Shown piece after piece: positions 1,395 through 42,960 of a stretch of DNA of 64,000 nt. The notes under the pieces were generated by a model. The model did no database searches and was not told the DNA's origin. It was given only the letters and a program-made list of their open reading frames with translations. A program made the translations under genes and the position numbers. The stretch is from Cordylochernes scorpioides. Lineage: Eukaryota; Arthropoda; Arachnida; Pseudoscorpiones; Chernetidae. Location of the stretch: contig CP092868.1 of the NCBI GenBank assembly GCA_030710605.1, positions 27,313,646-27,377,645 on the forward strand, written 5' to 3'. Positions within the stretch are counted from its first letter, which is position 1. The number at the start of each line of letters is the position of its first letter.

Positions 1395-1730
1395 AAAAAA
1401 TAATAAGTGCATATCCTGACCAAAAGCACATGTGATTTTTAGATGGCAGAGCGCCATCTAGTGGAGCAAAAATAAACTAAACGTTTATTTAACTTGCTCC
1501 GTGATATTTGACCAACCCAGTTTATTGATAAATCAAGAAAAGCCATCCACGAACGCGTTTCGCGCTGTTGGCGTTCGTCAGCGTGGAGCAGGCTGTACCA
1601 CTAAGACCAAAAATATTTTTTGGTCCCAGAGGCTTCTTGAAAAACCAAAAAAATGGGTATTTAAGGCCAAACTTGCGTAAATACGCTAAGAACATGAGAA
1701 AACAATAGAAAAAATAAAAATATTGAAATA
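1395..1730 (-). mobile_element. Hammerhead-bearing non-autonomous element, subfamily A, copy 1
   Basis: Matches, in reverse orientation, the element at 8290-8612. One terminus carries GCATATCCTGACC, then GCACATGTG and a hairpin of the type GATGGCAGAGCGCCATC; the other side carries TTGGCC, GACCAAAAA and an A-rich end. A 40-nt hammerhead ribozyme (1547-1586) lies in the middle. No protein is encoded. I infer a non-autonomous retroelement (retrozyme-like or Penelope-derived) because type I hammerheads are known from those groups; the mobilising machinery is not visible here. Confidence 0.6.
1547..1586 (-). ncRNA. Type I hammerhead ribozyme, copy 1 (damaged stem II)
   Basis: On the minus strand: stem I CCACG/CGTGG (sixth pair T-A), core CTGACGA (position 7 may be any base), stem II ACGC-CAACA-GCGC, then GAAA, CGCG, and cleavage triplet GTT. 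The closing pair of stem II is A-C instead of G-C, which should weaken activity. Core and stem I are intact. Confidence 0.8.
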
Positions 1731-1938
1731 TTATTGATAAAATCAACCGTTTCTGTTGTATAGTGGTTATCACATTCGTATAACATGCCAAAGGTCACAG
1801 TTTCGAGCCCTGGCAGAAACATCTTTTTCGGATTTACTCAGATTAATAAATTAGCTTGATTGTCCTAATTAAGTTTTCCTGTATATAAATATCAAATTAC
1901 CTTTCCCCCCCAAGACCTGTTAACTGCCTCAAAGTTGC

Positions 1939-1960
1939 GGGGGGGGGGGGGGGGGGGGGG
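1939..1960. repeat. Poly-G tract, 22 bases
   Basis: A run of 22 G in otherwise AT-rich DNA. It could form a G-quadruplex, or its length could be inflated by sequencing error; compare the 26-G run inside the R2-like LINE at 53586-53611. Confidence 0.95.
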
Positions 1961-2089
1961 TGACCCTAGATGGGACAGTATGTCTGGAGTTCTGAACTCC
2001 TGGTAACTAAGACATGAATCCTGTGGTGTGTCGATTTAATAGTCCAGCGATGACCCAGAAAGTATTTCAAAGTTAGTGTTTTATTGGTA

Positions 2090-2415
2090 TTACTTATTAG
2101 CTATATTTTTAGAGGAAGACAAAAAGGACAACACCCTAGAATGTCTATTGGGTTCTCATTGACTTCCGCCGATCTGCCGCGCCACACAGCGGTGGCCATC
2201 CGTACTATTTTCAGGCCCCGCTTGTATGTTTGCCGTGTTCCGTCATCCCAGCAGACTGAAAGGAAGTCTCTCGGCTCCCACAATCCCACTATGTCCAGCT
2301 AACATACCTACCTACATCAGATGTCCCATCAACAGGCATCTAAATACTCCAATTAATTCTGATTCATATTCCCATTATGTGATTAGATTAATAAATAATA
2401 ATAACAATGCTTATT
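2090..2415 (+). mobile_element. Possible 5'-truncated retroposon ending in an AT-rich tail
   Basis: A relatively GC-rich block that ends in GATTAGATTAATAAATAATA followed by more A/T repeats, the kind of 3' end seen in non-LTR retroposons. Open frames exist on both strands but show no motif I recognise. Called from base composition and tail only. Confidence 0.3.
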
Positions 2416-2429
2416 ACTGGTATTTTTAC

Positions 2430-2785
2430 TGTAACTCCGCCTTTGCCAGTCCCAAGCCCGGATGAAAAAGGAGGAGGAGGAGCAGTAACAAGCTCACTAA
2501 AAAACCTGGGCTCAGCTGGCCCGGCTGATAGTACCCTGTAAGGGCTCCTAATCCAGGGATACAGGATGAGCAGCGTTTGTACTCCATGTTAGGAGCGGCT
2601 GCACATGGCATCTGTTCCTCATGTCAGAGGTGGCCATTTCTTTTGGAGCTAAGTCGGCCTGCCACTGAGTAGTGCTCCCAGTCTTAATGACAAAGGCAGA
2701 CACATTCTACTTCACCCAGTTATGATGGTTGTCGAAGCTTGATACCCTGATACGATTGAGTGGCGATAAGAAAGAAGAAGAAGAT
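2430..2785 (-). mobile_element. Dispersed repeat D (LINE-like), minus-strand copy
   Basis: The same sequence occurs in plus orientation at 11808-12180 and 28165-28560. Shared landmarks are TCCCAAGCCCGGATGAAAAA, a run of GGAGGAGG, and a pyrimidine-rich end (CTTCTTCTTTCTTATC on the other strand). It is richer in GC than its surroundings, as LINE parts are here. No complete reading frame is shared by all three copies, so I call it a retroelement fragment, not a gene. Confidence 0.6.
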
Positions 2786-2789
2786 TTTC

Positions 2790-2885
2790 ACTGTTATTCC
2801 TGCATGTATCCTACATTTCTACTGGGAGAATCTGTATAAGACTGAAAGGTCTTAATAAAACTTTGTGTTGTTATTGATAAAATCT
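2790..2885 (+). mobile_element. LINE 3' end with terminal stem-loop and AATAAA
   Basis: Ends in a short hairpin, AAGAC...GTCTT (2838-2853), directly followed by AATAAA and a TTGTTGTTATT tail. The same hairpin-plus-AATAAA layout closes the LINE tails at 41581, 12262 (minus), 17711 and 55664 (minus), so this is most likely a severely 5'-truncated copy. Confidence 0.55.
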
Positions 2886-3139
2886 TTTTTTTATGGATCT
2901 TCCCCGTGGGTCTCGAGAACCATGTCATCATCTCGTCTGCGAAGTTTGTGATTTACGTTTTTTTCGTCTGCCAAAAAATGTGTCGTGTCACTGAAGACCT
3001 GTTGACGATATTCCATCATACTTTGTATCGGTATCACCTTGTACATGATCCTCGCACATAGCTTTTATTGCATATCACGGTAAAATTTTCATATATATTT
3101 CATCCATAGATTTTTTCTAGTCCCTACCAACTTTACTGT

Positions 3140-3980: not shown

Positions 3981-4364
3981 CTAGTACACGCGGCACAGGC
4001 CATGATAATCATGGTTAGTAGAAGTATTGGGTAAAGTTTTCAACTAGCAATAATCGCGCCTCGGAAGATTCTCATTGGCTACGATATCGCCTCTGCGCAA
4101 ATGGTGGGTAGAAGTAGGCGACTGCTTTTACTGTAAGTGCACCACATATCTACACATGTGAAAAGCATTTCGACTTTGCACTTATAAATGTGCCAGAGCC
4201 CCGTTTGGTTACTTGCACTCGCTGGTGGGATTGGAATTTTGCAAGAATCGGGGGCCATTGGAGCATTTTTTTAATCAGAAAAAAAGTGCCCAATGTGGGA
4301 ATCGAATTCGGGTCGTAGTGGTCGAAAACCAACGGTTTAAACCATCCTTCCACCGACCCTCACT
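3981..4364 (-). mobile_element. tRNA-derived SINE, full-length copy
   Basis: On the minus strand the head has a Pol III B-box-like CCCGAATTCGATTCCCACA inside a tRNA-like region (about 4285-4360). The body follows (GGCCCCCGATTCTTGC, then AACGGGGCTCTGGCACATTT) and ends with an AT-rich conserved tail (CCATGATTATCATGGCC, near 4000). Other copies lie at 10738, 20008, 27085, 34288, 41240 and 61870. No protein is encoded; LINE machinery is presumed to mobilise it. Confidence 0.8.
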
Positions 4365-7194: not shown

Positions 7195-7405
7195 ATACAT
7201 TGTTGGTATAGCCTGCTCCACGCTGACGAGCGCCAACAGCGCAAAACGCGTTCGTGGATTGCTTTTCTTGATATATCAAGAAATTGGGATGGCCAAATAT
7301 CAGAGAACAGGTTAAATCAATGTTTAGTTGATTTCTGTTTCACTAGATGGCGCTATGCCTTTAAAAAGCACATGTGATTTTGGTCAGGATATACCATTTT
7401 ATTTT
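7195..7405 (+). mobile_element. Hammerhead-bearing element, subfamily A, copy 2 (partial)
   Basis: Aligns with 8405-8612: GCCTGCTCCACG, ribozyme, CTTTTCTTGAT, GGCCAAATATCA, CTAGATGGCGCTATGCC, GCACATGTG and GGTCAGGATATACC. The half upstream of the ribozyme is missing. Confidence 0.65.
7218..7257 (+). ncRNA. Type I hammerhead ribozyme, copy 2 (G12 mutated)
   Basis: CCACG, CTGACGA, GCGC-CAACA-GCGC, AAAA, CGCG, TT, CGTGG. Stems I (with a sixth T-A pair) and II are perfect, but the conserved GAAA reads AAAA, so G12, a catalytic residue, is lost. Expected to be inactive. Confidence 0.82.
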
Positions 7406-7420
7406 TAATATATATATATA

Positions 7421-8109: not shown

Positions 8110-8325
8110 TCCTACAATATAGTATATGAAAAAACAATAGAAAAAATAAAAGATAAGTGGGTCAGGTGTTGATATTAAAAATAAAGAAGGCATCTCCTGA
8201 CTACGACCACATGTGCTTTTTAGATGGCAGAGCGTCATCTAATGGACAGGAGATGCCTTCTTTATTTTTAATATCAACACCTGACCCACTTATCTTTTAT
8301 TTTTTCTATTGTTTTTTCATGTTTT
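8110..8325. mobile_element. Head-to-head palindrome of subfamily A termini, no ribozyme
   Basis: AGGCATCTCCTGACTACGAC and GCACATGTGC, hairpin and then the same terminal sequence inverted, ending in A-rich arms (GATAAGTGGGTCAGGTGTTG and its complement). This is two element termini joined head to head, directly upstream of the ribozyme-bearing copy 3. Confidence 0.8.
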
Positions 8326-8612
8326 AAGCGTCCTTACGCAAATTTGGCCTTAAATACCCATTTCTTGATTTCTCAAGAAGCCTCTGGGGCCAAAATCTTT
8401 TTGGTCGCAGTGGTTACAGCCTACTCCACGCTGACGAGCGCCAACAGCGCGAAATGCGTTCGTGGATGGCTTTTCTTGATTTATAAAGAAATTGGGTTGG
8501 CCAAATATCACGGAGCAAGCTAAATAAACGTTTAGTTTATTTTTGCTCCACTAGATGGCGCTCTGCCATCTAAAAAGCACATGTGCTCGTGGTCAGGAGA
8601 GAGAGAGAGAGA
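8290..8612 (+). mobile_element. Hammerhead-bearing element, subfamily A, copy 3
   Basis: Most complete subfamily A copy: A-rich end, TTGGCCTTAAATACCCATTT, GCCAAAATCTTTTTGGTC, ribozyme at 8426-8465, GGTTGGCCAAATATCAC, then terminal hairpin GATGGCGCTCTGCCATC and GCACATGTGC. Non-coding. It is followed by a GA-rich microsatellite (about 8596-8622). Confidence 0.68.
8426..8465 (+). ncRNA. Type I hammerhead ribozyme, copy 3 (core intact)
   Basis: CCACG, CTGACGA, GCGC-CAACA-GCGC, GAAA, TGCG, TT, CGTGG. Stem I extends to six pairs with T-A; stem II is four perfect pairs; all core residues of the CUGANGA/GAAA consensus are present. Stem III is minimal (A-U plus a U.G wobble), and the cleavage triplet is GUU. 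Hammerheads with such short stem III are known to work best as dimers. One of two copies here that could be active. Confidence 0.88.
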
Positions 8613-9250: not shown

Positions 9251-9440
9251 TAGCCGAATTCATTATGATTTCAGAATCTTTGAAACCTATTCCTACTCAT
9301 GATGTACTTGATCGTTTAAGTCACTCCGTGATTGTCTATTTTGATACATTGCCAGATTCCCCCAGCTTGTATTGAAAGTATTAGTGCTTGTATTGAAAAC
9401 TTTGGCTCGAAGGTTATCCATATTAAAAGTAAATAAAATA

Positions 9441-10640
9441 TATACTCATAGACAAAAGGAAGTTATACCTATTAGAATGTATATCGGAATACAGACAATA
9501 ACTCTGAAAGATATTACAGTGACCTTTATTGAAGACACACGAGATAAACAAGTGTGAACAAAACTTAAGGAAGTTATACCTTTCAGCATTAATATCGGGA
9601 TTCAGACAATAACTCTGAAAGATATTACAGTGACCTTTATTGAAGACACACGAGATAACCAAGTGTGAACAAAACTTAAGGAAGTTGTACCTTTTATCAT
9701 GTATATCGGGATTCAGACAATAAATCTGAAATATATTACAGTGATCTTTATTGAAGATACACGAGATAACCAAGTGTGAACAAAACTTAAGGAAGTTGTA
9801 CCTTTTATCATGTATATCGGGATTCAGACAATAAATCTGAAATATATTACAATGACCTTTATTGAAGACACACGAGATAACCAAGTGTGAACAAAACTTA
9901 AGGAAGTTGTACCTTTTAGCATGTATATCGGGATTCAGACAATAACTCTGAAAGATATTACAATGACCTTTATTGAAGACACACGAGATAACCAAGTGTG
10001 AACAAAACTTAAGGAAGTTGTACCTTTTACCATGTATATCGGGATTCAGACAATAACTCTGAAAGATATTACAGTGATCTTTATTGAAGACACACGAGAT
10101 AACCAAGTGTGAACAAAACTTAAGGAAGTTGTACCTTTTAGCATGTATATCAGGATTCAGACAACAACTCTGAAAGATATTACAGTGACCTTTATTGAAG
10201 ACACAAAAGATAACCAAGTGTGAACAAAACTTAAGGAAATTGTACCTTTTAGCATGTATATAGGGATTCAGACAATAACTCTGAAAGATATTACAATGAC
10301 CTTTATTGAAGACACACGAGATAACCAAGTGCAACCAACACTTAAGGGAGTTGTACCTTTTAGCATGTATATCTGGATTCAGACAATAACTCTGAACTAA
10401 ATTACAATGACCTTTATCGAAGAAACACGAGATAACCAAGTGTGAACAAAAGTTAAGGAAGTTGTACCTTTTACCATGTATATCGGGATTCATACAATAA
10501 CTCTGAAAGATATTACAGTGACCTTTATTGAAGACATACTAGATAACCAAGTGTGAAGAATATTGTCTCTGTCTCCTTCAAAAAATAGACGACCAGCAAT
10601 ATCAAAGGCTTCCGCTTCCTTAAGTTTTGTCCAGTATATT
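9441..10640. repeat. 111-bp satellite inside a Tc1/mariner-like MITE, array 1
   Basis: About ten units of 111 bp (landmarks CTTAAGGAAGTTGTACC, ATGTATATCGGGATTCAGAC, AACTCTGAAAGATATTACAG, CCTTTATTGAAGACACACG). The array is closed by inverted termini: TATACTCATAGACAAAAGGA on the left and, inverted, ATATACTGGACAAAACTTAA on the right, so tandem growth took place inside a MITE. Because 111 is a multiple of 3, the minus strand stays open for 356 codons (9423-10493) as a 37-residue repeat. I do not regard that frame as a gene. Confidence 0.9.
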
Positions 10641-10737
10641 GTGTACAAAACATAAGTCGTTGTATACTCCTGTATAAGGGTTTGTGATACCTGAAAACTT
10701 GAGAGAACGTTTAAATTAAAAATTAATATCCCTAGTA

Positions 10738-10990
10738 AACGTGGTACAGGCCATGATAATCATAGTGGATAGAAGTTGGCGACTGCTTTTACTGTAAGTG
10801 CACCACATGTCCAAACATGTGAGAAGCAGTTCGAATTTGCACTTAAAAATGTACCAGAGCCCCGTTTGGTTACTTGCACTCGCTGGTGGGGTTGGAATTT
10901 TACAAGAATCGGGGGCCATTGGTGTATTTTTTTTAATTATAAAAAAGTGCCCAATGCGGGAGTCGAACCCGGGTTTAAATAAAGCAAGAA
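10738..10990 (-). mobile_element. tRNA-derived SINE (head truncated)
   Basis: Same SINE as 3981-4364: tail near 10745, body with GATTCTTGTAAAATTCCAAC, and a B-box-like CCCGGGTTCGACTCCCGCA near 10955-10975. The 5' end is cut off just beyond the B box. A paralogous copy is at 27085-27330. Confidence 0.82.
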
Positions 10991-11104
10991 ATTTGTCCTC
11001 GATGACAGTATGTTATTTAAGAATAACAATAAATTACATTAAAAACATTATTCGAATTTCTTCAAAGAATGGTTAGATATTTAACCAACAGTCTTATATT
11101 GTGC

Positions 11105-11560
11105 GACTGAAAGTGGCTGATGGCTTGAGCCATCTATCGGAATAAATATCACCTATTCTCGTTGATTTTTAATTATTCCAGAATTGGCCAAATACCCATT
11201 CTTGATTAATCAAGTAAAGCTAACCACGGACGCTTTTCGGGCTGTTGGCCCTCATCAGCGTGGTGCAAGCTGTACCTCAACGACCAAAAAAATTAGCATC
11301 CTGAAAAAATCATTAAACGCGTAGTTAAGGCCAGAATTACGTGAGACCGTGACACAATGTGAAAAAAATAGTACAAGTGTGATATTGTATTGGGATAAGG
11401 TGCATAAATTTAGAAAAAGGCATCTCCTTATCGTGCAACATCGTGCTTTCAGTTGCACGATAAGATGCCTTTTTCTAAATTTATGCACCTTATCCTAGTA
11501 CAATATCACATTTGTACTATCTTTTCAAAAATTATATTGGTTTTAAAACATAAACAAGTA
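11105..11560 (-). mobile_element. Hammerhead-bearing element, subfamily B, copy 1
   Basis: Terminus with GGCTTGAGCCATC and CGGAATAAATATCA, then TTGGCCAAATACC, ribozyme at 11224-11263, GACCAAAAA, TTAAGGCCAGAATTAC, and an end with GATATTGTATTGGGATAAGG and a head-to-head duplicate of GGCATCTCCTTATCGTGCAA. Shares its middle with subfamily A (TGTACAGC, TTGGCC, GACCAAAA, TTGATTAATCAAG) but differs at the outer parts. Non-coding. Confidence 0.68.
11224..11263 (-). ncRNA. Type I hammerhead ribozyme, copy 4 (core intact, GUC site)
   Basis: Minus strand: CCACG, CTGATGA, GGGC-CAACA-GCCC, GAAA, AGCG, TC, CGTGG. Stem I has six pairs (outer A-T where subfamily A has T-A); stem II is four perfect pairs with G-C at the second pair where subfamily A has C-G. 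The core is the textbook CUGAUGA/GAAA and the site is the preferred GUC. Stem III keeps only its A-U pair (A.G mismatch next). Best-preserved copy overall. Confidence 0.93.
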
Positions 11561-11807
11561 AAATACAGTTGGGAGAAATTGAAGAACTATCAAGAAGAAA
11601 GGAAAAGAAAAAACAGTTTTTCAATCGATTTTTAGCAGATGTGGCGAGATCAGTTTAGATGGATGGGTGGCCTGGAATCCTCCTTTCTGTAAACAGAAAT
11701 ATATCTTTTCTTCTTAAAATGCTTTTTCACCAGTAGTGGGGTATTTACCATTCTCTTTACCGCATCATTGTGTAGGGCAGTTTTACATTGTCGCAATGTC
11801 TTCTTTC

Positions 11808-12180
11808 TTATCTCCACTCAATCATATTAAGGTATCAAGTTTGTAAAGCTTGACAACCATCATGACTGGGTGAAGTAGAATGCATATGCCTTTGTCATAA
11901 AGACTGGGAGCACTACTCAGTAGCAGGCCGACTTAGCTCTAAAAGAAATGACCGCCTCTGACATGAGGAACAGACACCATGTGCAGCCACTCCTAACATG
12001 GGAGTACAAACGCTGCTCATCCTGTATCCCTGGATTAGGAGCCTTTACAGGGTACTATTAGCCGGGCCAGCTGAGTCCAGGTTTTTTAGTGAGCTTGTTA
12101 CTACTCCCCTCCTCCTTTTTCATCCGGGCTTGGGACCGGCAAAGGCGGAGTTGTGTCGGAGTGTCGCAATGTGATTCATA
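11808..12180 (+). mobile_element. Dispersed repeat D (LINE-like), copy 2
   Basis: Plus-strand counterpart of 2430-2785 with TTCTTTCTTATCTCCACTC, GGAGTACAAACGCTGCTCAT and TCATCCGGGCTTGGGACCGG. Paralog at 28165-28560. Confidence 0.6.
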
Positions 12181-12184
12181 TGTG

Positions 12185-12660
12185 TCACCAATAGAAAACT
12201 AGAGCTTCAACCCCCTTCTCATGATAGTTATATTTTATAACAAACAATAACACAGCTTTATTTAGACCACCGGTCTTATACAGATTCACCACAGAAGAAA
12301 GGAAGCATAGATGGAACTCCTGTATTCCAGGCAACGCAGCACCCAACAACAGCCTCCTGGTCCGACACATGTCCAATGGCCACACATTACTTAATGCATA
12401 ACGTCATGGTTAGCGAATCACTGAAAGTGTGGAATCAGCCGCGTTCTATTCTTCGCTTTCTTCATCCAAATGGACCACGACATTCGGCGATTCTATCAAT
12501 CTCCTCCGAACGGTGACTTCGGTCTTGTAGAATTTATATAAACCAAAAAGAAGACATTGATCAAACATCATTGCATTTATCCAGTTATAAATTTGTTGAC
12601 TATCGGATTGAAATAAGGATAAATCACCTAAGAGTTCCCCTCTTTGTTTCTCCAAGCAAC
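12185..12660 (-). pseudogene. 5'-truncated LINE: ORF2 C-terminus plus 3' UTR
   Basis: Minus strand: about 69 codons (12655 to 12446), ending YKTEVTVRRRLIESPNVVVH and an acidic DEESEE before the stop. A 3' UTR follows with the hairpin AGACCGGTGGTCT (about 12262-12280) and AATAAAGCTG. The same terminal peptide and UTR occur at 28570-29005 (minus), 41385-41610 and 62025-62250 (plus). Reverse transcriptase is missing, so the copy is dead. The clade cannot be named from this part. Confidence 0.72.
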
Positions 12661-12662
12661 AT

Positions 12663-12800
12663 CAAAAGAAATATTACCTCTCCCGTCAAAATAGATACAA
12701 AACTAGGTGTCATATATCGACCATATCTGTAAACTAGTTTAATCGGTTCAGTGACAAAGCCACAACACCAGCTTTGGAAAATTCAGAACGTCTACATGGA
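12663..12800. mobile_element. Arm of the CTCTCCCGTCAAAATAGA foldback MITE
   Basis: Terminus CCTCTCCCGTCAAAATAGA, then ACTAGGTGTCATATATCGAC and GGTTCAGTGACAAAGCCACA. Other copies: 18225-18345, 18600-18815, 29037-29160, 32470-32585, 32935-33065 and 33285-33400. Confidence 0.7.
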
Positions 12801-12961
12801 GACTATAGTTTCGGAAGAATAGCTCTCGTCAATCTAGGGCGGGATTTTAGGTTTAAGGCATACGATAAAAATATATCCATTGTATCTCTTCTCTGTGAAT
12901 AAATATAAATAGAGATACATTATAAACATTTTCTCTAAATACCTATTTAGACGAAAAATTT

Positions 12962-13190
12962 AGAAGAAAAAACAACTGTCCAGGTGTGGAACTAACACCT
13001 ACCCACATATTCTCATGCCCAGCAATGGCCGCAGCCTTGCAGAAAATTGACTTAGACCCAGAGCAGCAGCTTTACACACCCAAGATAATGGACATTACTG
13101 TGATAGAGATGTATGGAGACATCTTAGACTCTTCTTTGGACACGACAACAACAAAAGAAAAAATATATTCAGTCTGAAAGATATGTATTA
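12962..13190 (+). pseudogene. LINE C-terminal zinc-knuckle fragment (NNCPGVELTPTHIFSCP)
   Basis: Open frame reading NNCPGVELTPTHIFSCPAM and about 45 further residues to a stop at 13177, the C-x-H-x-C end typical of non-LTR ORF2 downstream of the RNase H region. The coding tail ends in a CAA-rich 3' end (GACACGACAACAACAAAAG). Only the C-terminus survives. Close copies: 29340-29545 (plus) and 16170-16437 (minus), the latter with more upstream sequence. Confidence 0.75.
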
Positions 13191-13237
13191 TAAACACTTT
13201 TTTTTATAATAACTTATTTTTATATGATAAAAAATTT

Positions 13238-13562
13238 GAAACTATTTTAGACGCGTAAGATTCTTTTTTAAAAATTGAACAATTTTTCTACTGCCCTTAC
13301 TGCAATTGAAAAAAAAAATTAATGGGAGGGCCTGGCTCATCAGTGGTGAACCCTCCCAGCGGTTTCGCCAGTTTAATCTCCATTAAATGCAATATAGCAG
13401 CGGTATGGTAGATTAAACTGGCAAAACCGCTGGGAGGGTTCACCACTAATGAGCCAGGCATTAATTTTTCCATTGCAGTAAGGGCAGTAGAAATTGTTTA
13501 ATTTTAAAATAGAATCTTACGCGTCTAAAATAGTTTCGAATTTTAATAACAGATGGCGCGCT
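13238..13562. mobile_element. Foldback MITE with GGCGAAACC / CTGATGAGCC arms
   Basis: Palindrome centred near 13385. Outer arms TTTTAGACGCGTAAGATTC, then CTGCCCTTACTGCAATTG, inner GGTTTCGCCAGTTTAATC and its inverse. Copy 2 counterpart at 29600-29945. See the finding on hammerhead-like words in this family. Confidence 0.88.
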
Positions 13563-13811
13563 AGTATATCATTAGAGAGTTCTTTTTAGATACTATTTAA
13601 ATAATAAACATTTTATTTTGACGTTGAAATTTATTCAGTGTGTGTAAAATATAGATCATTTTAGTTTTCTTTAAATACTATTCTTATGTTATTTCAATTT
13701 AAAATGCTATCTCCCCCTAGAGACACTTACGTTGTCATACATGTATGACATTTGTCTATACATATTGCCACGTGGGAAATTTACAGAGTCGCAAGATATA
13801 AACATTAAAAA

Positions 13812-14583
13812 AATGACCACTCTGTTAATAAAAAATAATGAAATTAAGAAATACTATGTTACATAAATAAAATTAATAAATACTATGTTACATAGCTTCT
13901 TCCCTATGGGAGCTGTGACCCACAGCTAGCAATTATTGTAGATACTGACGTGGATTTGACGTGCTTCTGCCAAGGATTCCATCGAAGTCTTGGAACTTTG
14001 TCCCTAGTACCTTTGCGTCCTTTTTCTTGCGGCGTGAAGAGCGGCTTTGTCGTCGTATCGTCTATAGGAACATCGTCATCTTCGAGGGAAGTCTTGGCTT
14101 TGGCACGGCGGTGGAATCCTGGAGTCAGTCTCCGAAAATGTAGATCACAGCACCCATGGCTTCAAGGTCTTCTCGGCGATCTTCAGTTTGTCTTCCCTAA
14201 CTTACCCAGCATCTCCACCAAAATGCCACGTGGGAAATTTACAGAGTCGCAAGATATAAACATTAAAAAATGACCACTCTGTTAATAAAAAATAATAAAA
14301 TTAAGAAATACTATGTTACAATATTGTCACAGTAATGAAGGTGACACGATGTCCCTATAGACGACGATACGACGACAAAGCCGCTCTTCACGCCGCAAGA
14401 AAAAGGACACAACGGTACTAGGGACAAAGTTCCAAGACTTCGATGGAATCCTTGGCAGAAGCACGTCAAATCCACGTCAGTATCTACAATAATTGCTAGC
14501 TGTGGGTCACAGCTCCCATAGGGAAGATGCTATGTAACATAGTATTTATTAATTTTATTATTTTTATTAACAGAGTGGTCATT
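13812..14583. mobile_element. Large foldback element whose arms contain coding-like sequence
   Basis: Arms 13812-14068 and 14352-14583 are inverted copies (ends AATGACCACTCTGTTAATA; inner TCTTGGAACTTTGTCCCTAG). On the minus strand one frame stays open from about 14160 to a stop near 13910, including FRRLTPGFHRRAKAKTSLED and RLRWNPWQKHVKSTSVSTII, and its second half is repeated in the opposite arm. The GC content is well above the surroundings. I do not recognise the protein; a captured gene or retroelement fragment is possible. Confidence 0.7.
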
Positions 14584-26312: not shown

Positions 26313-26345
26313 AGGAAAATTACGTTAATAAATTAATAATAAATA

Positions 26346-28560: not shown

Positions 28561-28569
28561 AATATAAAA

Positions 28570-29005: not shown

Positions 29006-29036
29006 TCTTTGTTTCTCCAAGTAACATCAAAAGAAA

Positions 29037-29550: not shown

Positions 29551-29599
29551 TGAAAGATATGTATTATAAACACTTTTTTATAATAACTTATTTTTATAC

Positions 29600-29945: not shown

Positions 29946-30079
29946 CATCATAATATTCATTTTTAATGATATATCATTAGAGATTTATTTTTAGATATTA
30001 TTTAAATAATAAATATTTTATTTTGACGTTGAAATATATTCAGTGTATATAAACAATACTTAAAATTATACCGCATAAG

Positions 30080-30480
30080 TTTCTTTTCTATGAAAAATCA
30101 ATATTTATTTTAAAGAGAAATATTTACTATTTCTAACTTTTTTGAATGAAGTATGAGAGGGTGAAAATATGAAGAGTAATGGCGAACCGGAAAAATAAAA
30201 GTGTCCAGGGGCGGGAATCGAACCCACAACCTTCTGCCCACCGGGCAGGTGCCATGTCCACTAGGCACGGTGGGCAGAAGGTTGTGGGTTCGATTCCCGC
30301 CCCTGGACACTTTTATTTTTCCCGTTCGCCATTACTCTTCATATTTTCACCCTCTCATACTTCATTCAAAAATGTTAGAAATAGTATATATTTCTCTTTA
30401 AAATAAATATTGATTTTTCATAGAAAAGAAACTTATGCGGTATAATTTTAAGTATTGTTTATAATCACACGCCGTAGTCC
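30080..30480. mobile_element. Near-perfect foldback MITE with palindromic tRNA-like centre
   Basis: The whole 400 bp folds on itself: outer arms TTTCTTTTCTATGAAAAATC and inverse, AAATAAAAGTGTCCAGGGGC on both sides, and a centre at about 30255 with TGTCCACTAGGCACGGTGGG. Both arms carry a B box (GGGTTCGATTCCCGCC, one per strand). So two tRNA-like halves are fused head to head. Confidence 0.92.
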
Positions 30481-30639
30481 TTTATAATGTATTATATTCA
30501 GTGTATGTATATATATATATTATTATAGTTTTCTTTAAATACTATTTTATTTCAATTTAAAGCGATATGTTCACCTAGGGACACTTGCGCTGTCATACAT
30601 GTATGACATTTGTCTATACCTATTGTCACAGTAATGAAG

Positions 30640-30885
30640 GTGACACGATGTCCCTATAGACGATACGACGACAAAGCCGCTCTTCACGCCGCAAGAAAAA
30701 TGACGCAAAGGTACTAGGGACAAAGTTCCAAGACTTCGATGGAATCCTTCGCAGAAGCATGTCAGATCCACGTCAGTATCTACAATAATTGCTAGCTGTG
30801 GGTCACAGCTCCCATAGGGAAGAAGCTATGTAACAAAGTATTTATTAATTTTATTATTTTTATTAACAGAGTGGTCATTTTTATG
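30640..30885 (+). mobile_element. Single arm of the coding-like foldback (copy 2)
   Basis: Matches 14340-14583 of copy 1. The left arm present at 13812-14330 is missing, so copy 2 lost it or copy 1 gained it. Confidence 0.8.
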
Positions 30886-31344
30886 TTTATATTTTGCTAT
30901 TCTGTAAATTTCTTTCGTGGCTTATCTTTTGTTTACCTTTCATAGTTTGTCCTTGCCTGAAATAAATTGTTGTCTCCTCCTGAAGTTTTTGTCTTTCCTA
31001 ATTTTCCACGTGGCAATATTTATACAATAATTTTAGGCCGTGAATAGAATAGTCATATGATATTAACAATGTAAAAGAGAGTGGAAAAAACGAGAAAAAA
31101 GAACTGTTTACAAAAGAAAGAAGTGTCTGGCAATATGTACAATCAGCATAATATAAATTATCAGTTTCTTAAAAGATATTTGTGTTGCTATATAATTTAA
31201 AATATATCTACAAAAGGTATTGAATTTAATATACATTTCTTTACTGGAAATAAAAATACTTGGATCTATTACTATTAAATTATTTTCGATTCTGTAGTCT
31301 TTAAACTAGAATTTAAACACTAAACACTTATTTGAATGTAAAAA

Positions 31345-31640
31345 AATAGTACAAATGTGATATTGTACTGGGATAAGGTGCATAACTTAAGAAAAAAAGG
31401 CATCTCCTTATCGTTCAACTGAAAGTTGCTGATGGCTTGAGCCATCTATCGGAATAAATATCAACTGATATATTTCAATATAAATTTCTTTATTATTCAA
31501 GAATGGGTATTTGGCCAATTCAGGAATAATAAAAAAATCAACGAGAATAGTTGATATTTATTCCGATAGATGGCGCAAGCCATCAGGAACTTTCAGTTGC
31601 ACGATAAGGAGATGCCTTTTTCTTAACTTATTTGAATGTT
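31345..31640. mobile_element. Head-to-head palindrome of subfamily B termini (copy 2)
   Basis: Counterpart of 15038-15345, with GGCATCTCCTTATCG at both outer ends and no ribozyme. Confidence 0.85.
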
Positions 31641-32024
31641 AAAATATATTCAATGTAAAAAAATACATTTAAATGTTTTCTCTAAATACTATTTAGACTA
31701 TAAAACACTTTGAAAGTTTTCTTACCGTAAGAAAACAATAAAGCCGATCTAAAATCATCCCAAAAGATTTACAAACAAAGTAACAGGATATCGTCTGAAG
31801 TCAAAAGTTAGATAGAACTTCTTCCAACAAAGAACTTGGTAACAATTAAGTGACATCTTTTATTTATCTGTTTATTTATTTATTTAGAGACTTAGATTTA
31901 AAAGTTTCTTCTGCTTTTTTTTGTTCCCATCGTGTCTCTATCCAATTTATCCTTTTTCTCAATATTCTAATATCTATTATAGACACGTATGATTCTTTTA
32001 TAAATTAAACAATTTCTAGTTCCC

Positions 32025-32454: not shown

Positions 32455-33415
32455 ATATAGGTTGGCGTTCTGAAATTTCATAAACTGGTGTTTTGGCTTT
32501 GTCACTGAATCGATTCCACAAGTTTGCAAAGACAGTCAATAGATGACACCTAGTTTTGTGTCTATTTTGACGGGAGAGATTTCTCTTAATTAAATATGAC
32601 TATAATAGAAAGGGCTATATAAGATTCTAATAGTTTTCTATTGGTGACACATATGAATCACCTGTGTATTGCGACACTGCCCTACACAATGTCTTGTCAT
32701 TGGTGACGCCCACCGCGGGAAAGACTCCGTCACCGATTTTTGTTCCACTAGATGGCGCTCTGGCATCTAAAATTGTTCATATGAACGGTTAGGATATGCA
32801 AATTTTGTATTTACATATATATATATTAAAATAAAGAAGGCATCTCTTGACCACGAGCACATGTGCTTTTTAGATGGCAGAGGGCCATCTAAATATATAT
32901 AGATGGAAATTATGCTGGGAGGATATTGATCTAAAGAGACAAAGGTCACCTCTCCCGTCAAAATAGACGTTAAAACTAGACGCCATCTATTGACCGTCGC
33001 CGCAAACTAGCGGTCTCGGGTCGGTGACAAAGCTGGTGTTGTGGCTTTGTCACCGACCCGAGGCACCCTTTGTCTCTTTAGATCAATATCCTCCCGGCAA
33101 AATTTCCATCTATATTTTAGCCATAGATTTGACCCAGTCACTCTGCCAGCTAAACACCTCTTTGGTAGATTGTCAAGATTCCATTAGATCCCGTGTGGAT
33201 CTCATGGAATAAACTCCGCCCTAGACTGACGAGGGCCTTTAGCCCGTAACAATGGTCTCTAGGTGGACGCTTCTCAGTTTGCCGAAGCTGGTGTTGTGGC
33301 TTTGTCACTGACCCGAGGCCGCTAGTTGTGGCGACGGTCAATAGATGGCGTCTAGTTTTAACGTCTATTTTGACGGTAGAGGCGACCTTTGTTTCTTTAG
33401 ATATATCTATATATT
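32455..33415. mobile_element. Cluster of CTCTCCCGT...ATAGA MITE arms and a subfamily A terminus
   Basis: Counterpart of 18210-19140, with palindrome 32930-33090. An extra piece at 32825-32895 (AAGAAGGCATCTCTTGACCA, GCACATGTGC, GATGGCAGAGGGCCATC) is a hammerhead-element terminus that copy 1 lacks here. Confidence 0.7.
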
Positions 33416-36394: not shown

Positions 36395-36412
36395 ATACGC
36401 TTGTTCGGCGGT

Positions 36413-36452
<40 letters not shown>

Positions 36453-36497
36453 GGCCTCTGCGCAAGGATGACACGCAAAATCGTGAAGCGTTCCACA
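36395..36497 (+). pseudogene. U6: U6 snRNA retropseudogene, copy 2
   Basis: Counterpart of 23082-23183 with one private C to T change (ATGGCCTCTGCGC). No T-run follows. The leading direct repeat has drifted to CCACGCAAACAT. Confidence 0.85.
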
Positions 36498-37179
36498 CAA
36501 ACATATATTAACATATGATAAAAGTAGAGTTAAAAATTATTTCCATTTTTTAGCGATAGATGGCGCTTATTTGAGATTATTTCAAAACCTGTATTTAGAA
36601 AATATGTAAATATAATTAAATGAATAACAAGCTACATTAGGCAAACAACCGGCTGGTGTATAAACTAGGCTTAACTATTTGAACCAATCAATTTTCCCCA
36701 GTCGGATGTCATTAATGATGCCCCCCCCATCTTCCAATTAATAACTATTCATTAATTATATCTTGTAAGGTTGTTTCTCTTGTTTAGAACGGATTTATTA
36801 AATGTTTATAATGACTTTACAGATATTGTATATCTTTATTGAGTCTTGTTATTTTCCTATCGAAAGATATTTCTCTTTTTGAGAATCAATTTAGCTTGAA
36901 ATTGATTTTTCAATTGAACATGATTATTAATGATAGTAATATATCATATTATAAAATATATGAAGCTTCCAGGGTTAAGTTTCTTTGCAACCTTTTATTT
37001 TCAAGCTTTCGGACTTGTCAGTCCTTAGATAGTATTTAGATTGAAATCCGTTTATCATTCCAGTTTAAGGGCCCTTCCAATTCATCAGTTTAAACACCTT
37101 TCATCTCATTCGAACGATTCAATAACTCCTCTAGGGAGATTGTTATGAAATCGAAGCCCTCCCTATACTGAACTTCTTC

Positions 37180-37550
37180 TTTCTTATCTACACCCAATCA
37201 CACTAAGGTATCAAGCTTGTAGAGCTTGTTGATGGTGTCTGCCGGGAAAGAGTAGAGCTCATCAATGGATGAGTCAATACAGTCAATAATGTGTTTTGGG
37301 GTTGCAAGCTGAGAACCCTATACTGATGAGGGCTATAGAACGAAACCATAGTATACAAGTTGACTTTTGTCTGATTTTGCCAAAACTAGTTTTTTGTTGT
37401 TGCAAATATCTTATCACCATCATAACATTCTGTAATAGGGTGATAAACAAAAATCCATTGTTAATTCATTTTTTTAAGGGAGAGGTGCATCTTTAGGTAG
37501 ATGACTATTATTTTTCTTCAAATTTCTGTTATACCTTCCTCAGAGGAATG
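37180..37550 (+). repeat. Dispersed repeat with half-hammerhead motif (copy 2)
   Basis: Counterpart of 23870-24240; CTGATGAGGGCTATAGAACG then AAACC at 37323-37347. Confidence 0.5.
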
Positions 37551-37573
37551 AGATTCTAAATTCTAGCTTCTAA

Positions 37574-39128
37574 GTATACACTCATGAACAAAACTTAGGG
37601 AAGTTGTACCTTTTATCATGTTTATCGAGACAATAACTCTGAAAGATATTACAGTGACCTTTATTGAAGACACACGAGATAACCAAGTGTGAACAAAACT
37701 TAAGGAAGTGGTACCTTTTAACATGTATAACGGGATTTAGACAATAACTCTGAAAGATATTACAGTGACCTTTAATGAAGACACGAGATAACCAAGTGTG
37801 AACAAAACTTAAGGAAGTTGTACCTTTTACCATGTATATCGGGATTCAGACAATAACTCTGAAAGATATTAGAGTGACCTTTATTGAAGATACACGAGAT
37901 AACCAAGTATGAACAAAACTTAAGGAAGTGGTACCTTTTACCATGTATATCGGGATTCAGACAATAACTCTGAAAGATATTACAGTGACCTTTATTGAAG
38001 ATACACGAGATAACCATGTATGAACAAAACTTAAGGAAGTTGTACCTTTTAACATGTATAACGGGATTTAGACAATAACTCTGAAAGATATTAGAGTGAC
38101 CTTTATTGAAGATACACGAGATAACCAAGTATGAACAAAACTTAAGGAAGTGGTACCTTTTACCATGTATATCGGGATTCAGACAATAACTCTGAAAGAT
38201 ATTACAGTGACCTTTAATGAAGACACGAGATAACCAAGTGTGAACAAAACTTAAGGAAGTTGTACCTTTTAACATGTATAACGGGATTTAGACAATAACT
38301 CTGAAAGATATTACAGTGACCTTTATTGAAGATACACGAGATAACCATGTATGAACAAAACTTAAGGAAGTTGTACCTTTTAACATGTATAACGGGATTT
38401 AGACAATAACTCTGAAAGATATTAGAGTGACCTTTATTGAAGATACACGAGATAACCAAGTATGAACAAAACTTAAGGAAGTTGTACCTTTTAACATGTA
38501 TAACGGGATTTAGACAATAACTCTGAAAGATATTAGAGTGACCTTTATTGAAGATACACGAGATAACCAAGTGTGAACAAAACTTAAGGAAGTGGTACCT
38601 TTTACCATGTATATCGGGATTCAGACAATAACTCTGAAAGATATTACAGTGACCTTTATTGAAGACACACGAGATAACCAAGTGTGAACAAAACTTAAGG
38701 AAGTTGTACCTTTTAACATGTATAACGGGATTTAGACAATAACTCTGAAAGATATTAGAGTGACCTTTATTGAAGATACACGAGATAACCAAGTATGAAC
38801 AAAACTTAAGGAAGTTGTACCTTTTAACATGTATAACGGGATTTAGACAATAACTCTGAAAGATATTAGAGTGACCTTTATTGAAGATACACGAGATAAC
38901 CAAGTGTGAACAAAACTTAAGGAAGTTGTACCTTTTAACATGTATAACGGGATTTAGACAATAACTCTGAAAGAATTTACAGTGACCTTTAATGAAGAGA
39001 CGAGATAACCAAGTGTGAACAAAACTTAAGGAAGTTGTACCTTTTAACATGTATATCGGGATTCAGGCAATAACTCTGAAAGATATTACAGTGACCTTTA
39101 ATGAAAACACGAGGATAACCATGTGTGA
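37574..39128. repeat. 111-bp satellite array 4 (about 14 units)
   Basis: Counterpart of 24273-25063 with about twice the units. Deletion-bearing units with AATGAAGACACGAG break the minus-strand 37-residue frame into several pieces (longest 278 codons, 38214-39050). Alternation of ATATCGGGATTCAGAC and ATAACGGGATTTAGAC units suggests block duplication. Confidence 0.92.
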
Positions 39129-39522
39129 ACAACCTCTGTCTCCTATAAAATTTCATATTACACAAAATAAACATGCGCATAAAATAGTTCAAATTCTTAA
39201 ATACAGATGACATTTAAAAGCGCGAATGTTTCTTTTATACATAAAACGAAGTTTTTAAATCCTTTTATTTTATATGTATAGATGGCGCGTTATTGCTTTG
39301 TGTTAACAGATGACATTCATCTATCATGTAAAAAAATTCACTTATATTGTGTGTTAAATTATTGATAAATATTTGTAACAATGATGTTTTCTGGCAATAT
39401 GTTTCTACTTACATATATTATCGAATATATTATATCTACAGATCTTACTGCAATAATAAAATTTGTTATGAATGAGAGCATATCATTTCACTAAATTCTG
39501 TCGAGATATTATTTGATGATAT

Positions 39523-39768
39523 TGTCAAGTAGCTCCATCCAGATGGGACACCTGTCAATCATCCCTGGACCCCGGTGGGGACCACAGGTGTGGGGGCTTC
39601 TGGGAAGCTGATCTGTAAATAAGGAAAACGGGACGGTGGCTAACGCCGTTCATTCAGGATTAGCTTTAACTGGGGGTAAGTTGTACAAAACTCTCTCTCC
39701 CTATAATTACCCCTTATAATAAATTAATTATCCCCAAACTTGCCCTTGCTTTATTTATCTCCGCGACA
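39523..39768. mobile_element. Solo-LTR-like insertion, 246 bp
   Basis: Begins TGTCAAGTAGCTCC and ends CTCCGCGACA, flanked by a 4-bp duplication ATAT (39519-39522 and 39769-39772). Copy 1 has the empty site at about 25450 (GATGATATATATGAAAAT). TG...CA ends, a 4-bp duplication, GC-rich first half and an AATAAA-containing second half fit a Ty3/gypsy-type solo LTR; no internal retroviral-like genes are present. Other insertions with short duplications cannot be excluded. Confidence 0.72.
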
Positions 39769-39914
39769 ATATATATGAAAATATACACATTGCCAAAAAG
39801 TTATCGTAAATATTTTATCGAAAGATAGCAACTATATTATAAATACTATACTATATTCTCTCTCTCTATAAATGTAATAAATCAATAATTGAAAATATAC
39901 CGCATATGTTTTTT

Positions 39915-40190
39915 TTTTACGAAAAATTGAAACTTATTTTAAGGAGAAATAACGACCATTTCCAACCTTAGGGATGAAGTATGAAAGGATGAATTGTGAA
40001 GAGTAATGATAAACGGAACTGGACACTTCATCATTACTCTTCATAATTCATACTTTCATACTTCATCCCTAAGATTAGAAATAATCGTTATTTCTCCCCT
40101 TAAAATAAGGTTCGAATTTTCGTTCAAAAGAAACACATGCGGGATATTTTCAAATGTCGTTTTACAATCATAGGCCGCATTATATTGTAT
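39915..40190. mobile_element. Foldback MITE of the tRNA-like family, centre collapsed (copy 2)
   Basis: Counterpart of 25590-25870. Confidence 0.8.
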
Positions 40191-41239
40191 AAATAAATAT
40201 ATTTACACATTGCGCATTAGAAAACTGTAATAAACGCTAAAAAATATCTTTAAAAAAACTTCTCTTAGTTCTAAAATATATATAATTTTCCCATTTTTCA
40301 AACTTTGACCAACAAGAAAGTGGTAATATTAGTAATGGAAAAACTATGCAAATTTCTTAATAAAAGGCGAGGGGCCAGGTATTAGTGCCACCAAAATTGG
40401 GCCATATGGCCGGTTTAATGTTACCTTAATTAAGTAAATTAGTTAAATGATAGAGATTAATTACATCTAACGTGGCAATTTACAGTCTTTGAAGGTTTCC
40501 ACAAGAAGAAAACCTATTTAATTTGTGCATATACTAGATATATAATAATATTATAAAATAAATAAAGCTTCCAGGGTTAAGTTTCTTGTACAACATTTTA
40601 TTTTCAAGCTTTCGGACTTGTCAGTCCTTCAACAGGAAAATTACGTTAATAAATTAATAATAAATACTATTTTTTTATATAAATTTGTCCATAATATAAA
40701 TGTATATGCCAAAAATATTTTTCTCTCCATTGAATATAAGCAAAATATTTTTAAAACTTAATTCTGTTGACGTTATGTGTATTCTCAGAGCTCTAATACT
40801 GTATTGGATTGTTCTGCCTTTATATGTTACACCGAAAGTGGAATGGTATTTAAGAAAATTAACATTCAGTATCAAATTAAAGTTCCAAAATATTGTGACA
40901 TAGAGTTAGACAGCTAGACTAGACATTCTATTTAGAATATGCAGGTAGTTCAGACAGTTTGATCAGACGCCACCAACATGTCATTCAGGGTCGTGAGATG
41001 AATTTAGCAGCGACCATTCCCTGGCTCCCTTTCGTTCCTCTATTCTAATCTTCTGTCTTAGAAACTGGAGATGTTAACGAATCCATTCAACAAATACTCA
41101 ACATATATCATCATTTTACAATTTTATCACCTATATACAATTAAGTTATTTAGCGTAACTTATAAATTGGTTGATTAATGCACAATATTAAAGGAAGAAA
41201 TAACAGAATTTTTTTTTATTTTTTCTAATAAACTTCATA

Positions 41240-41384
41240 CATATCTCGATAATCATGGTAGGTACTAGTTAGCGAATTATTTTACTACAAGTGTACCATA
41301 CTCATATTTAGAAAGCAGTTCGATTTTTTCACTTACAAATGTGTCAGAATTCCGTTTGTTTACTTTCACTCAATAGAATCGCCG
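41240..41384 (-). mobile_element. tRNA-derived SINE, 3' part, interrupted by a LINE insertion
   Basis: Tail and part of the body up to TTTACTTTCACTCA. The rest of the same SINE resumes at 42062 with TTTACTCGCACTCA, so the 14-16 bp shared sequence is a target-site duplication around the inserted block. Confidence 0.7.
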
Positions 41385-41625
41385 AATATCGTGGTCCATT
41401 TGGATAAGGAAAGCGAAGACTAGAACGCGGCTGATTCCACAATCGCCTTTTCAGTGATACGTTAACCTATGTACGGTGTGACCACTGGACATGTGTCGGA
41501 CCTGGAGGCTGTTGTTGGGTTCTGTGCTGTCTGGAGTATAGGAACTCTATCTATTCTTCTTTTCTGTGGGGAATCTATATAAGACCGGTGGTCTTAATAA
41601 ATCTGTGTATCAAATTACAAAACTA
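41385..41625 (+). pseudogene. 5'-truncated LINE: last codons, 3' UTR, terminal hairpin
   Basis: Starts in the C-terminus (IESPNVVVHLDKESED, then TAG), followed by a 3' UTR with GACCACTGGACATGTGTCGG and the hairpin AAGACCGGTGGTCTT (41581-41595) directly before AATAAATCTGTG. Same family as 12185-12660 and 28570-29005. Counterpart at 62025-62250. Confidence 0.72.
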
Positions 41626-41629
41626 CGAG

Positions 41630-41800
41630 TATTTTAGACGCGTAATATTCTTTTTTAAAATAAAACAATTGCTACTGCCCTTACTGCAATGGAAACATTA
41701 TAGGGAGGGCCTGGCTCATCAGTGGTGAACCCTCCCAGCGGTTTCGCCAGTTTAATCTACCATACCGCTGTTATATTGCATTTTTGGAACTTCCTTTTAT
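41630..41800 (+). mobile_element. Single arm of the GGCGAAACC foldback MITE
   Basis: AGACGCGTAATATTC, CTGCCCTTACTGCAATGG, then CTCATCAGTGGTGAACCCTC and GGTTTCGCCAGTTTAATC. The opposite arm is missing. Counterpart at 62260-62420. Confidence 0.75.
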
Positions 41801-41886
41801 AGTGATACTGATGCTAGATTCTTGGAATGGGTACTTTAGATGAACTATGGACATAAGCTTAGAGGACAGTAGAATTACATATAACA

Positions 41887-41979
41887 CTGATAGACAAAAC
41901 TTAAGGAAGTTGTACCTTATAGCATATATATATCGGGATTCAGAGGGTACAACTTCCTTAAGTTTTGTCTATCAGTGTA
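41887..41979. mobile_element. 93-bp foldback made of two Tc1-like MITE termini
   Basis: ACACTGATAGACAAAACTTA, AGGAAGTTGTACC and a short spacer, then the exact inverse ending CTATCAGTGT. The paralogous site at 62511 lacks it (ACATATAATTATAAAT), so the insertion is polymorphic between copies; a TA target fits the flanks. It is the minimal terminus-only form of the family that makes the 111-bp arrays. Confidence 0.85.
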
Positions 41980-42061
41980 ATTATGAATATATAATATGCT
42001 TCGAGCAATCGCTCTTCCGCAAATATCGATTTGTGTCTTTTATTCGTCTATTATAAATCTG

Positions 42062-42240
42062 TGTTTGATTGTGTGTGTTTACTCGCACTCATTGGTGGGG
42101 TTAAACTTTTGTAAGAATCATGGGACCATTGAATCAATTATTTCTTCACAAAAAGGGTGATCCATCTGAGATTCGATTCATAGTCGTAGCTATCAATAAT
42201 CAACAGTTTAAACCACTCTTATACCAAACTTCATGTTATA
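42062..42240 (-). mobile_element. tRNA-derived SINE, 5' part after the LINE insertion
   Basis: Body and head: plus strand TTGTAAGAATCATGGGACCA, then a decayed tRNA-like head (GAGATTCGATTCATAGTCG). Confidence 0.65.
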
Positions 42241-42529
42241 AAGACGTATATACAAGATAATTCTCAGTTTAGATATAATTTAAGAAAGAATTCTTGGAGA
42301 AAATTATGGGCGAAGACGTTAAAGATTAATTCTATAATTATTGGGAAGATGAGAAAGGTCAAAGGAGAACTCAGGAAACGCCCGAAGAATAACAAAAAAG
42401 ATGTGATTCGATATTAGTGACATATTGATTGGGTCATAATATCTTCACCATAGAACCTAACTTCATCAATATCCTACAGTTAGATTCTATTAAAACTCTT
42501 AAACTACTAATAAAAAAGACATATTTCCT

Positions 42530-42960
42530 GATCATGAAACTAAAAATTGCTGATGGCTTCCGCCATCTATCAGAACAAATATCAACTAATCATTTATTTT
42601 AATTTTTACATTTATTTATTACCAGTACAAGACACGCTATATCCGATCTGAATAATTGCGCGTGAAACTATTTACAAAAATTGTAGTAGAGTAGGTAACA
42701 GAATTATCAAAAATAAAATAAACAATTACGAGCATTGAATAAACATATACATTAAACAAATAAGCAACAACATAAGCATATAGAAGAAATCGCAAGGTAG
42801 TTATTTACAGTATGTTAAGCAATGATGGAAGTTTAATTATTGCATAATTGGCCAAATATCGTTTCATGATTAATCAAGAAAAGCTAACCACGTACGCGTG
42901 TCGGGCTGTTGGGTTTCTTCAGCGTGTTGCTATGGTACGTGGTCTTAAATATTGATTGTT
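42530..42960 (-). mobile_element. Hammerhead-bearing element, subfamily B, copy 3, split by a LINE tail
   Basis: Terminal hairpin GATGGCTTCCGCCATC near 42550-42570; then a LINE 3' end (42600-42835, minus, same as 20835-21065) interrupts it; the element resumes with ATTGGCCAAATATCG and the decayed ribozyme at 42888-42927. Its counterpart begins at 63830. Confidence 0.65.
42888..42927 (-). ncRNA. Type I hammerhead ribozyme, copy 6 (decayed)
   Basis: Minus strand: ACACG, CTGAAGA, AACC-CAACA-GCCC, GACA, CGCG, TA, CGTGG. Core GAAA reads GACA and stem II has lost pairs, so it should be inactive. The CAACA loop and spacing are unchanged. Confidence 0.7.

Follow-up and report, generated by a model that had tools for sequence, protein, structure and literature searches.

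A 64,000-nucleotide stretch of the genome of the pseudoscorpion Cordylochernes scorpioides (the window; assembly GCA_030710605.1, contig CP092868.1, positions 27,313,646 to 27,377,645 of the forward strand) contains six copies of a 40-nucleotide motif. Sequence comparison supports the assignment of these 40-mers to type I hammerhead ribozymes that reside in non-coding mobile units of the metazoan non-long-terminal-repeat (non-LTR) retrozyme kind. The retrozyme insertions carry the insertion signature of Penelope-like elements (PLEs), namely copies joined head-to-head with a tail at one of two 3' ends. We propose, with a probability of about 0.78, that these hammerhead retrozymes are mobilised in trans by a PLE. 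The proposal draws on the ribozyme structure, its covariation and copy number, the insertion layout, the pairing of 3'-end sites, an excess of target-site duplications (TSDs) and a parallel with coding PLEs. A preliminary description of the window had left open whether the motifs belong to retrozymes or to PLEs; the evidence points to retrozyme-like units inserted in the PLE manner.

Direct sequence checking placed the 40-mers at all six positions and strands that the preliminary description had reported (Table 1). All six hammerheads are present; however, full integrity is limited to copies 3 and 4, which have the conserved core attributed to them earlier as well as intact stems I and II; copy 1 comes close. 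The type I hammerhead core (CUGANGA...GAA, A15.1-U16.1 and an NUH cleavage site, with residue roles assigned by hammerhead numbering) is present in copies 3 and 4 and in the core of copy 1. Copies 4 and 5 lie within a 2.6-kb segmental duplication, 90% identical, and thus represent a single insertion, so that the window holds at most five independent hammerhead insertions. The claimed compensatory changes are correct in the named copies: copies 1-3 have C-G at the second pair of stem II where copies 4-5 have G-C, and the sixth pair of stem I is T-A in copies 1-3 versus A-T in copies 4-6. Alignment with flanking sequence shows that the six copies share the hammerhead and ~25 bp 3' of it. A strict descriptor (at least 4/5 pairs in stem I, CTGANGA, at least 3/4 pairs in stem II, exact GAAA, NTH) had no match in the window besides copies 1, 3 and 4, and averaged 0.02 matches in 100 Markov-resampled windows; chance was rejected as an explanation. 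In single-sequence folding the hammerhead is not the minimum-energy structure of the bare 40-mers. Extending the sequence to the outer stem lets copies 3 and 4 form both stem II and an outer stem (z scores of -1.7 and -1.9, respectively).

The genome search covered 2.62 Gb in 24 contigs. A 35-place core pattern yielded 26,005 exact matches and its reversed control none, and a 40-place core pattern was absent from the viral and prokaryote collections. A search for arthropod hemocyanin gave no match, with its control silent as well. Covariation was evaluated in 60 distinct copies picked for matching most of the core, with the six of the window among them. The structure comprises a 6-bp stem I, an internal loop, a 4-bp outer stem, a 4-bp stem II and a one-pair stem III. 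Over these 15 stem pairs, 92.8% of the cells are paired. Cells altered on both sides number 75 versus 27.2 in shuffled alignments, a value reached in none of 500 shuffles, although the contrast lies largely between two subfamilies and the independent events are thus fewer than the cells. Two-sided change occurs in 7 of the 15 pairs (equalled in 4/500 shuffles), and a variant of the structure omitting the sixth stem I pair gave 92.5% pairing and two-sided change in 6/14 pairs. The covariation is present in stems I and II and in the outer stem, the last of which alone occurs as AGCT/AGCT (17 copies), AGCC/GGCT (10), AGTC/GACT (4) and AGAC/GTCT (1), the remainder being rarer or broken. Stem III consists of one A-U pair, unvaried in 60/60 copies, so covariation is silent on it. 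The stem III loop is the palindrome CGCG in 53/60 copies, and the cleavage triplets are GTT (29), GTC (24) and GTA (7).

The units that carry the hammerheads are defined by tandem arrays as 338 bp (unit A, reference from locus L031) and 349 bp (unit B, reference from locus L033). The L031 array lies within a (TA)n tract; its monomers barely differ from one another and include five complete hammerheads. The 99.6-100% identity of L031 and L033 to the reference units is partly by construction, because the references were taken from these loci; copies elsewhere reach 99.0% identity (L039). Trimers of both units are non-coding, with longest ATG open reading frames of 44 (A) and 48 (B) residues, and the units lack a frame for reverse transcriptase (RT) plus GIY-YIG endonuclease. 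Their GC contents, 41% (A) and 40% (B), fall below the retrozyme bound of 45-50%, and the RNA of one A monomer folds at a z score of -7.9. As far as the parts consulted of Cervera and de la Pena 2020 (PMC7229834) describe them, metazoan non-LTR retrozymes share the type I hammerhead, tandem units of 150-450 bp, absence of LTRs, low GC content, thousands of copies and strongly self-paired RNA. The axolotl Amex1 motif described there is likewise characterised by a weak stem III and a palindromic tetraloop, and amphibian hammerheads with such a palindromic loop are said there to work best as dimers.

A covariance-model check of copies 3 and 4 with Rfam, which the preliminary description had put forward as one half of a refutation, did not reach the curated cut-off of 52 bits: the two copies score 24.4 and 22.1 bits, respectively. 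RF02275 (Hammerhead_HH9) is the sole hammerhead model reported for copies 2, 3 and 4 and for six units of L031/L033, in a listing that leaves out overlapping clan hits, if any. The E values are 0.11 for copy 3 in the whole window (0.0024 in 1.3 kb) and 0.0012 for copy 4 in 121 bases; copy 2 scores 19.3 bits and the intact genomic units 20.5-26.5 bits, the L033 unit at 1495-1542 being matched only partially (20.5). All scores thus lie between 19.3 and 26.5 bits, the gathering score being 52, and stem III has one pair. A genome search with RF00163 gave no match; the control genomes were silent too, which makes this result uninformative. The low scores, together with the broken cores of three of the six window copies, would fit a fossil family in which the motif is real and catalytically dead everywhere today. 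However, array monomers that are nearly identical mutually, other copies with up to 99.0% identity to the reference and the compensatory changes make such a family quite unlikely. The earlier suggestion of functional or recently functional ribozymes of a mobile family is instead favoured, as judged from copy number, covariation, the near-identical tandem monomers and the hallmarks of insertion.

The anatomy of the insertions was analysed in 63 loci chosen by an intact core within approximately the initial 10.6 Mb of a single chromosome (C1); seven loci overlapping others were dropped. At least one head-to-head insert occurs in 38 of the 63. Adjacent pairs comprise 42 same-family head-to-head, four same-family and four mixed-family tail-to-tail and five tandem pairs; most tandems merge in the trimer query. 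The 3' ends point outward and fall into two clusters ~50 nt apart, and the 5' ends are spread. With segments below 88% identity excluded (98/147 kept), unit A has 33/62 of its 3' ends in bins 176-191 (site 1) and 23/62 in bins 216-239 (site 2); for unit B, bins 184-199 and 232-247 each hold 17/36. Two of the 42 head-to-head pairs were dropped for short flanks and seven of the remaining 40 for an end outside both sites, which left 33 to be classed. One end lies at each site in 28 of these (p 3e-5). Loci L001 and L002 share flanks, so that one of the 28 mixed pairs was counted twice; removal of the duplicated locus leaves 27/32 (p 6e-5). Within the window, the inserts at 15035-15335, 50054-50291 and 60332-60528 also have one end per site; for copies 3 and 4, one end of the insert is at site 2 and the opposite end falls outside both sites. 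The head-to-head arrangement with two paired 3'-end classes, seen in many of the insertions examined, goes unmentioned in the parts of PMC7229834 consulted.

The flanks of the inserts provide further evidence. A non-simple shared flanking word of at least 6 bp, consistent with the TSDs of more than 4 bp that metazoan retrozymes have, if any (PMC7229834, consulted in part), occurs in 12/40 pairs, whereas 200 re-pairings gave a mean of 2.7 and a maximum of 7; many targets are (TA)n and thus uninformative for TSDs. The 3' flanks are 83% AT versus 66%, and (TA)4 occurs in 30/89 of them versus 32/1260. Inverted arms, AT-rich targets and short target duplications are also what foldback or miniature inverted-repeat (MITE-type) DNA transposons would leave; the head-to-head pairs would then be long terminal inverted repeats of transposase-mobilised elements. 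This explanation, the least likely of those considered, was rejected: arm length and 5' junction vary between inserts, the 3' ends of the two arms are ~50 nt apart, single and tandem copies occur, and the ribozyme covaries.

Neighbours of the unit 3' ends were counted at the first 100 genome places of each 3'-end word, within 1.5 kb for A and B. The B word gave 20 head-to-head, no tail-to-tail and seven same-strand pairs, and the A word six, none and 10, respectively. An RTE-like family served as a control and gave one head-to-head, no tail-to-tail and one same-strand pair per 100 places at both 1.5 and 6 kb. This control bears on the possibility that the units are short interspersed elements (SINEs) moved by an ordinary long interspersed element (LINE), for example the RTE-like family, and that the hammerhead is incidental. 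RTE-like and another LINE sequence do occur in the window, and twin priming can invert L1 copies. To our knowledge, however, twin priming is not expected to produce two outward 3' ends per insert. The rarity of pairs in the RTE-like control and the lack of a poly-A tail among the listed 3' flanks led to rejection of LINE-driven movement, which we regard as very unlikely; (TA)n often stands on both sides of an insert and is therefore read as target.

Mobilisation by a PLE calls for comparison with the coding PLEs of the same genome. GIY-YIG matches were found in 146 of the 150 candidates scored, out of 17,015 first-look candidates. Three kinds of PLE are present: P1 and P2, with the endonuclease on the C-terminal side, and one with the endonuclease on the N-terminal side (L101), a kind known as Naiad. 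The L101 locus (6201 bp) contains its N-terminal GIY-YIG PLE in a 2.9-kb head-to-head palindrome with arms 98.5% identical; it has 12 relatives in the protein collection, some with PF26215, PF00078 or PF01541. At the first 100 places of P1, 16 head-to-head, no tail-to-tail and two same-strand pairs were found within 6 kb. Ten of the 16 head-to-head pairs were fetched (e.g. L074, L102-L121), two of which are duplicates by eye (L106/107 = L108/109 and L114/115 = L116/117) and one of which (L112/113) has a disrupted left end and was not counted as readable, although the script scores one tail there too. A tail of ~35 nt is present on exactly one end in 7/7 readable independent P1 pairs, and in five of these the longest shared flanking word is 12 bp, a value for which no control was run. 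In P2 (L069, L076) a descriptor-positive hammerhead lies ~250 nt past the stop codon, and head-to-head pairs occur as well. P1 has a hammerhead-like motif downstream by eye, which the descriptor did not detect.

Family P1 thus resembles the retrozymes in its head-to-head inserts, in the tail on exactly one end, in its 12-bp shared flanking words and in a 7-bp hairpin with site 1 in its U-rich loop, preceded upstream by a hammerhead-like motif (by eye). It differs in being coding, in its sequence and hammerhead, and in its shorter tail. The hairpin is a candidate RT-start element. In the retrozymes, a perfect 7-bp hairpin (GATAAGG/CCTTATC in A, GGTCAGG/CCTGACC in B) has site 1 in its loop, and site 2 lies 3' of it. 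Two pairs, both compensated, distinguish the A stem from the B stem, and in 88 copies pairing holds for 94.9% of the stem cells versus 84.9% (maximum 88.7%) after re-dealing of strands. P1 encloses its site 1 between the arms CTGGCCG/CGGCCAG; the loop is U-rich and, at 29 nt, as long as that of B. Equally long stems were obtained in resampled sequences in 6/300 (A), 1/300 (B) and 14/300 (P1) cases. The hairpin module may be a common recognition element, for which these comparisons are suggestive and do not amount to proof.

Several observations weigh against PLE mobilisation. The 63 loci sample a single chromosomal region and were selected by core. Both ends use the same site in 5/33 classed pairs and one end lies outside both sites in 7/40, and 25/63 loci are without a head-to-head pair. 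The A word gave only six head-to-head pairs in 100 places; this word spans site 1, so that copies ending at site 1 are missed. None of the copies scored attains the RF02275 gathering score, the best intact genomic copy reaching 26.5 bits. The 5-bp stem of P2 is not significant (147/300 resampled), and the P2 hammerhead and the hammerhead-like motif of P1 both differ from that of the retrozyme. For the Anolis PLE, the part consulted of PMC11167929 reports insertion in vitro even with mutated hammerheads, so that cleavage may be dispensable. Finally, a PLE with a retrozyme-homologous pseudo-LTR (pLTR) was not found in 30 GIY-YIG loci of the 146 listed, searched to 1.5 kb on each side; the retrozyme matches within these loci are read as separate insertions.

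This last result bears equally on the possibility that the units are pLTR debris of an autonomous PLE family with the same sequence rather than an independent non-autonomous element. The insertion layout does match that of PLE pLTRs, and minimal type I hammerheads have been described in PLEs (PMC11167929, in the part consulted). The arrays of bare units, with nothing coding between the hammerheads, the 26,005 core matches and the lack of a homologous pLTR in the 30 loci searched, to 1.5 kb on each side, speak against debris, which we judge unlikely.

Mobilisation of the retrozymes in trans by a PLE could proceed as follows. Multimeric transcripts would be cut at the NUH site, probably as dimers, because a single A-U pair makes up stem III and its loop is in most copies the palindrome CGCG; the analogy is with amphibian and PLE hammerheads in the literature. 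The monomers may circularise, as in published retrozymes. A Penelope-like RT/GIY-YIG endonuclease acting in trans would make a staggered cut of both strands in AT-rich DNA, and reverse transcription would be primed by both 3' ends, each strand using one of two internal sites ~50 nt apart in the retrozyme RNA. A single complex may employ both sites, and the two 5'-truncated cDNAs would be joined head-to-head. Frangieh 2024 (PMC11167929), in the sections consulted, reports for the purified Anolis PLE cleavage and extension of both strands, with initiation at two adjacent sites. Arkhipova and colleagues 2013 (PMC3846280), as far as consulted, describe inverted PLE pLTRs with a tail optionally on one of them and head-to-head as the commonest inverted layout. 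According to these partly consulted sources (PMC3846280, PMC11167929), Penelope/Poseidon-type PLEs share with the retrozymes the head-to-head inverted copies with an optional tail at one end, short TSDs, AT-rich targets, two RT start sites and a minimal hammerhead. In contrast, the retrozyme unit has no RT or GIY-YIG frame, its tail is ~47-53 nt rather than 30-40, and its stem I has an internal loop and an outer 4-bp stem. More broadly, we lean towards a view of animal hammerhead retrozymes as Penelope-driven SINE-like parasites. They would mimic the RT-start module of PLEs, a hairpin with a U-rich loop plus a downstream second site, and one PLE complex would use both sites, one per cut strand, to give head-to-head cDNAs, one end of the insert being short and the other tailed.

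Other features of the window include large duplicated segments (9345-16000, 24000-32000 and 37500-40700) that contain 111-bp satellite arrays, and additional arrays with units of 74, 49, 80 and 32 bp. Spliceosomal U6 copies at 23081-23188 and 36395-36502 score 97.4 and 94.1 bits and each lies near a repeat with matching ~13.3 kb spacing; a U4-like copy at 3991-4104 scores 70.1 bits. A retrotransposon frame at 52716-54525(+) matches RVT_1 (E 1.3e-14), with a run of 26 G at its overlap with a second frame. A stretch of the latter, which has no Pfam match, resembles a REL endonuclease. Twister-P1 matches at 2428-2482(+), 12103-12156(-) and 28473-28527(-) score 37.5-42.4 bits, under the 67.2 cut-off, and sit 5' in ~350-bp elements with GAA-rich 3' ends that are probably RTE-like. 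A 27-mer from the 3' part of these elements has 7,827 exact genome matches. PMC7761336, consulted in part, describes RTE retrotransposons that bear truncated twisters at their 5' end.

Table 1 Hammerhead copies and retrozyme insertions in the window.
Feature	Coordinates	Strand	Remarks
Hammerhead copy 1, subfamily B	1547-1586	-	core intact; stem II first pair A-C
Hammerhead copy 2, subfamily B	7218-7257	+	AAAA replaces GAAA; HH9 19.3 bits
Hammerhead copy 3, subfamily B	8426-8465	+	core and stems intact; GUU cleavage triplet; HH9 24.4 bits
Hammerhead copy 4, subfamily A	11224-11263	-	core and stems intact; GUC cleavage triplet; HH9 22.1 bits
Hammerhead copy 5, subfamily A	27575-27614	-	segmental duplicate of copy 4; broken core (TAAA)
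Hammerhead copy 6, subfamily A-like	42888-42927	-	degenerate: GACA core, stem II broken
Retrozyme unit B with copy 1	1392-1719	-	q212 round to q190; 3' end at site 1
Retrozyme unit B with copy 2	7207-7411	+	3' end at site 1 (q191), then (TA)n
Inverted 5'-truncated B, head-to-head partner of copy 3	8126-8246	-	3' end at site 2 (q238)
Retrozyme unit B with copy 3	8243-8600	+	alignment ends q170 at start of GA repeat
Retrozyme unit A with copy 4	11097-11439	-	3' end q162, outside both usual sites
Head-to-head partner of copy 4 unit	11446-11527	+	3' end at site 2 (q230)
Head-to-head A fragments without hammerhead	15035-15335		ends q234, q190; segmental duplicate 31335-31631
Head-to-head insert with copy 5	27448-27885		segmental duplicate of copy 4 insert
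Short B insertion in (TA)n tract	32823-32891	-	3' end q191; paralogous 18440-18600 without insertion (empty site, by eye)
Head-to-head B fragments	50054-50291		ends q191, q234
Head-to-head A fragments	60332-60528		ends q228, q183

Hammerhead retrozymes in animal genomes and hammerheads in PLEs are already known, and a 2020 review (PMC7761336, consulted in part) names PLEs and Terminons as "likely candidates" for moving retrozymes because they co-occur with them. The presence of the PLE insertion signature in hammerhead-retrozyme insertions appears to be new: no report of it was found in the parts consulted of a largely open-access literature, and one may exist in print. The candidate mobilisers thereby gain a mechanical fingerprint, and this genome offers 26,005 core matches together with its own PLEs as a reference. 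The pairing of one site per strand constrains models of PLE integration. As the model predicts the RT start positions for purified PLE protein, the question of retrozyme mobilisation becomes directly testable.

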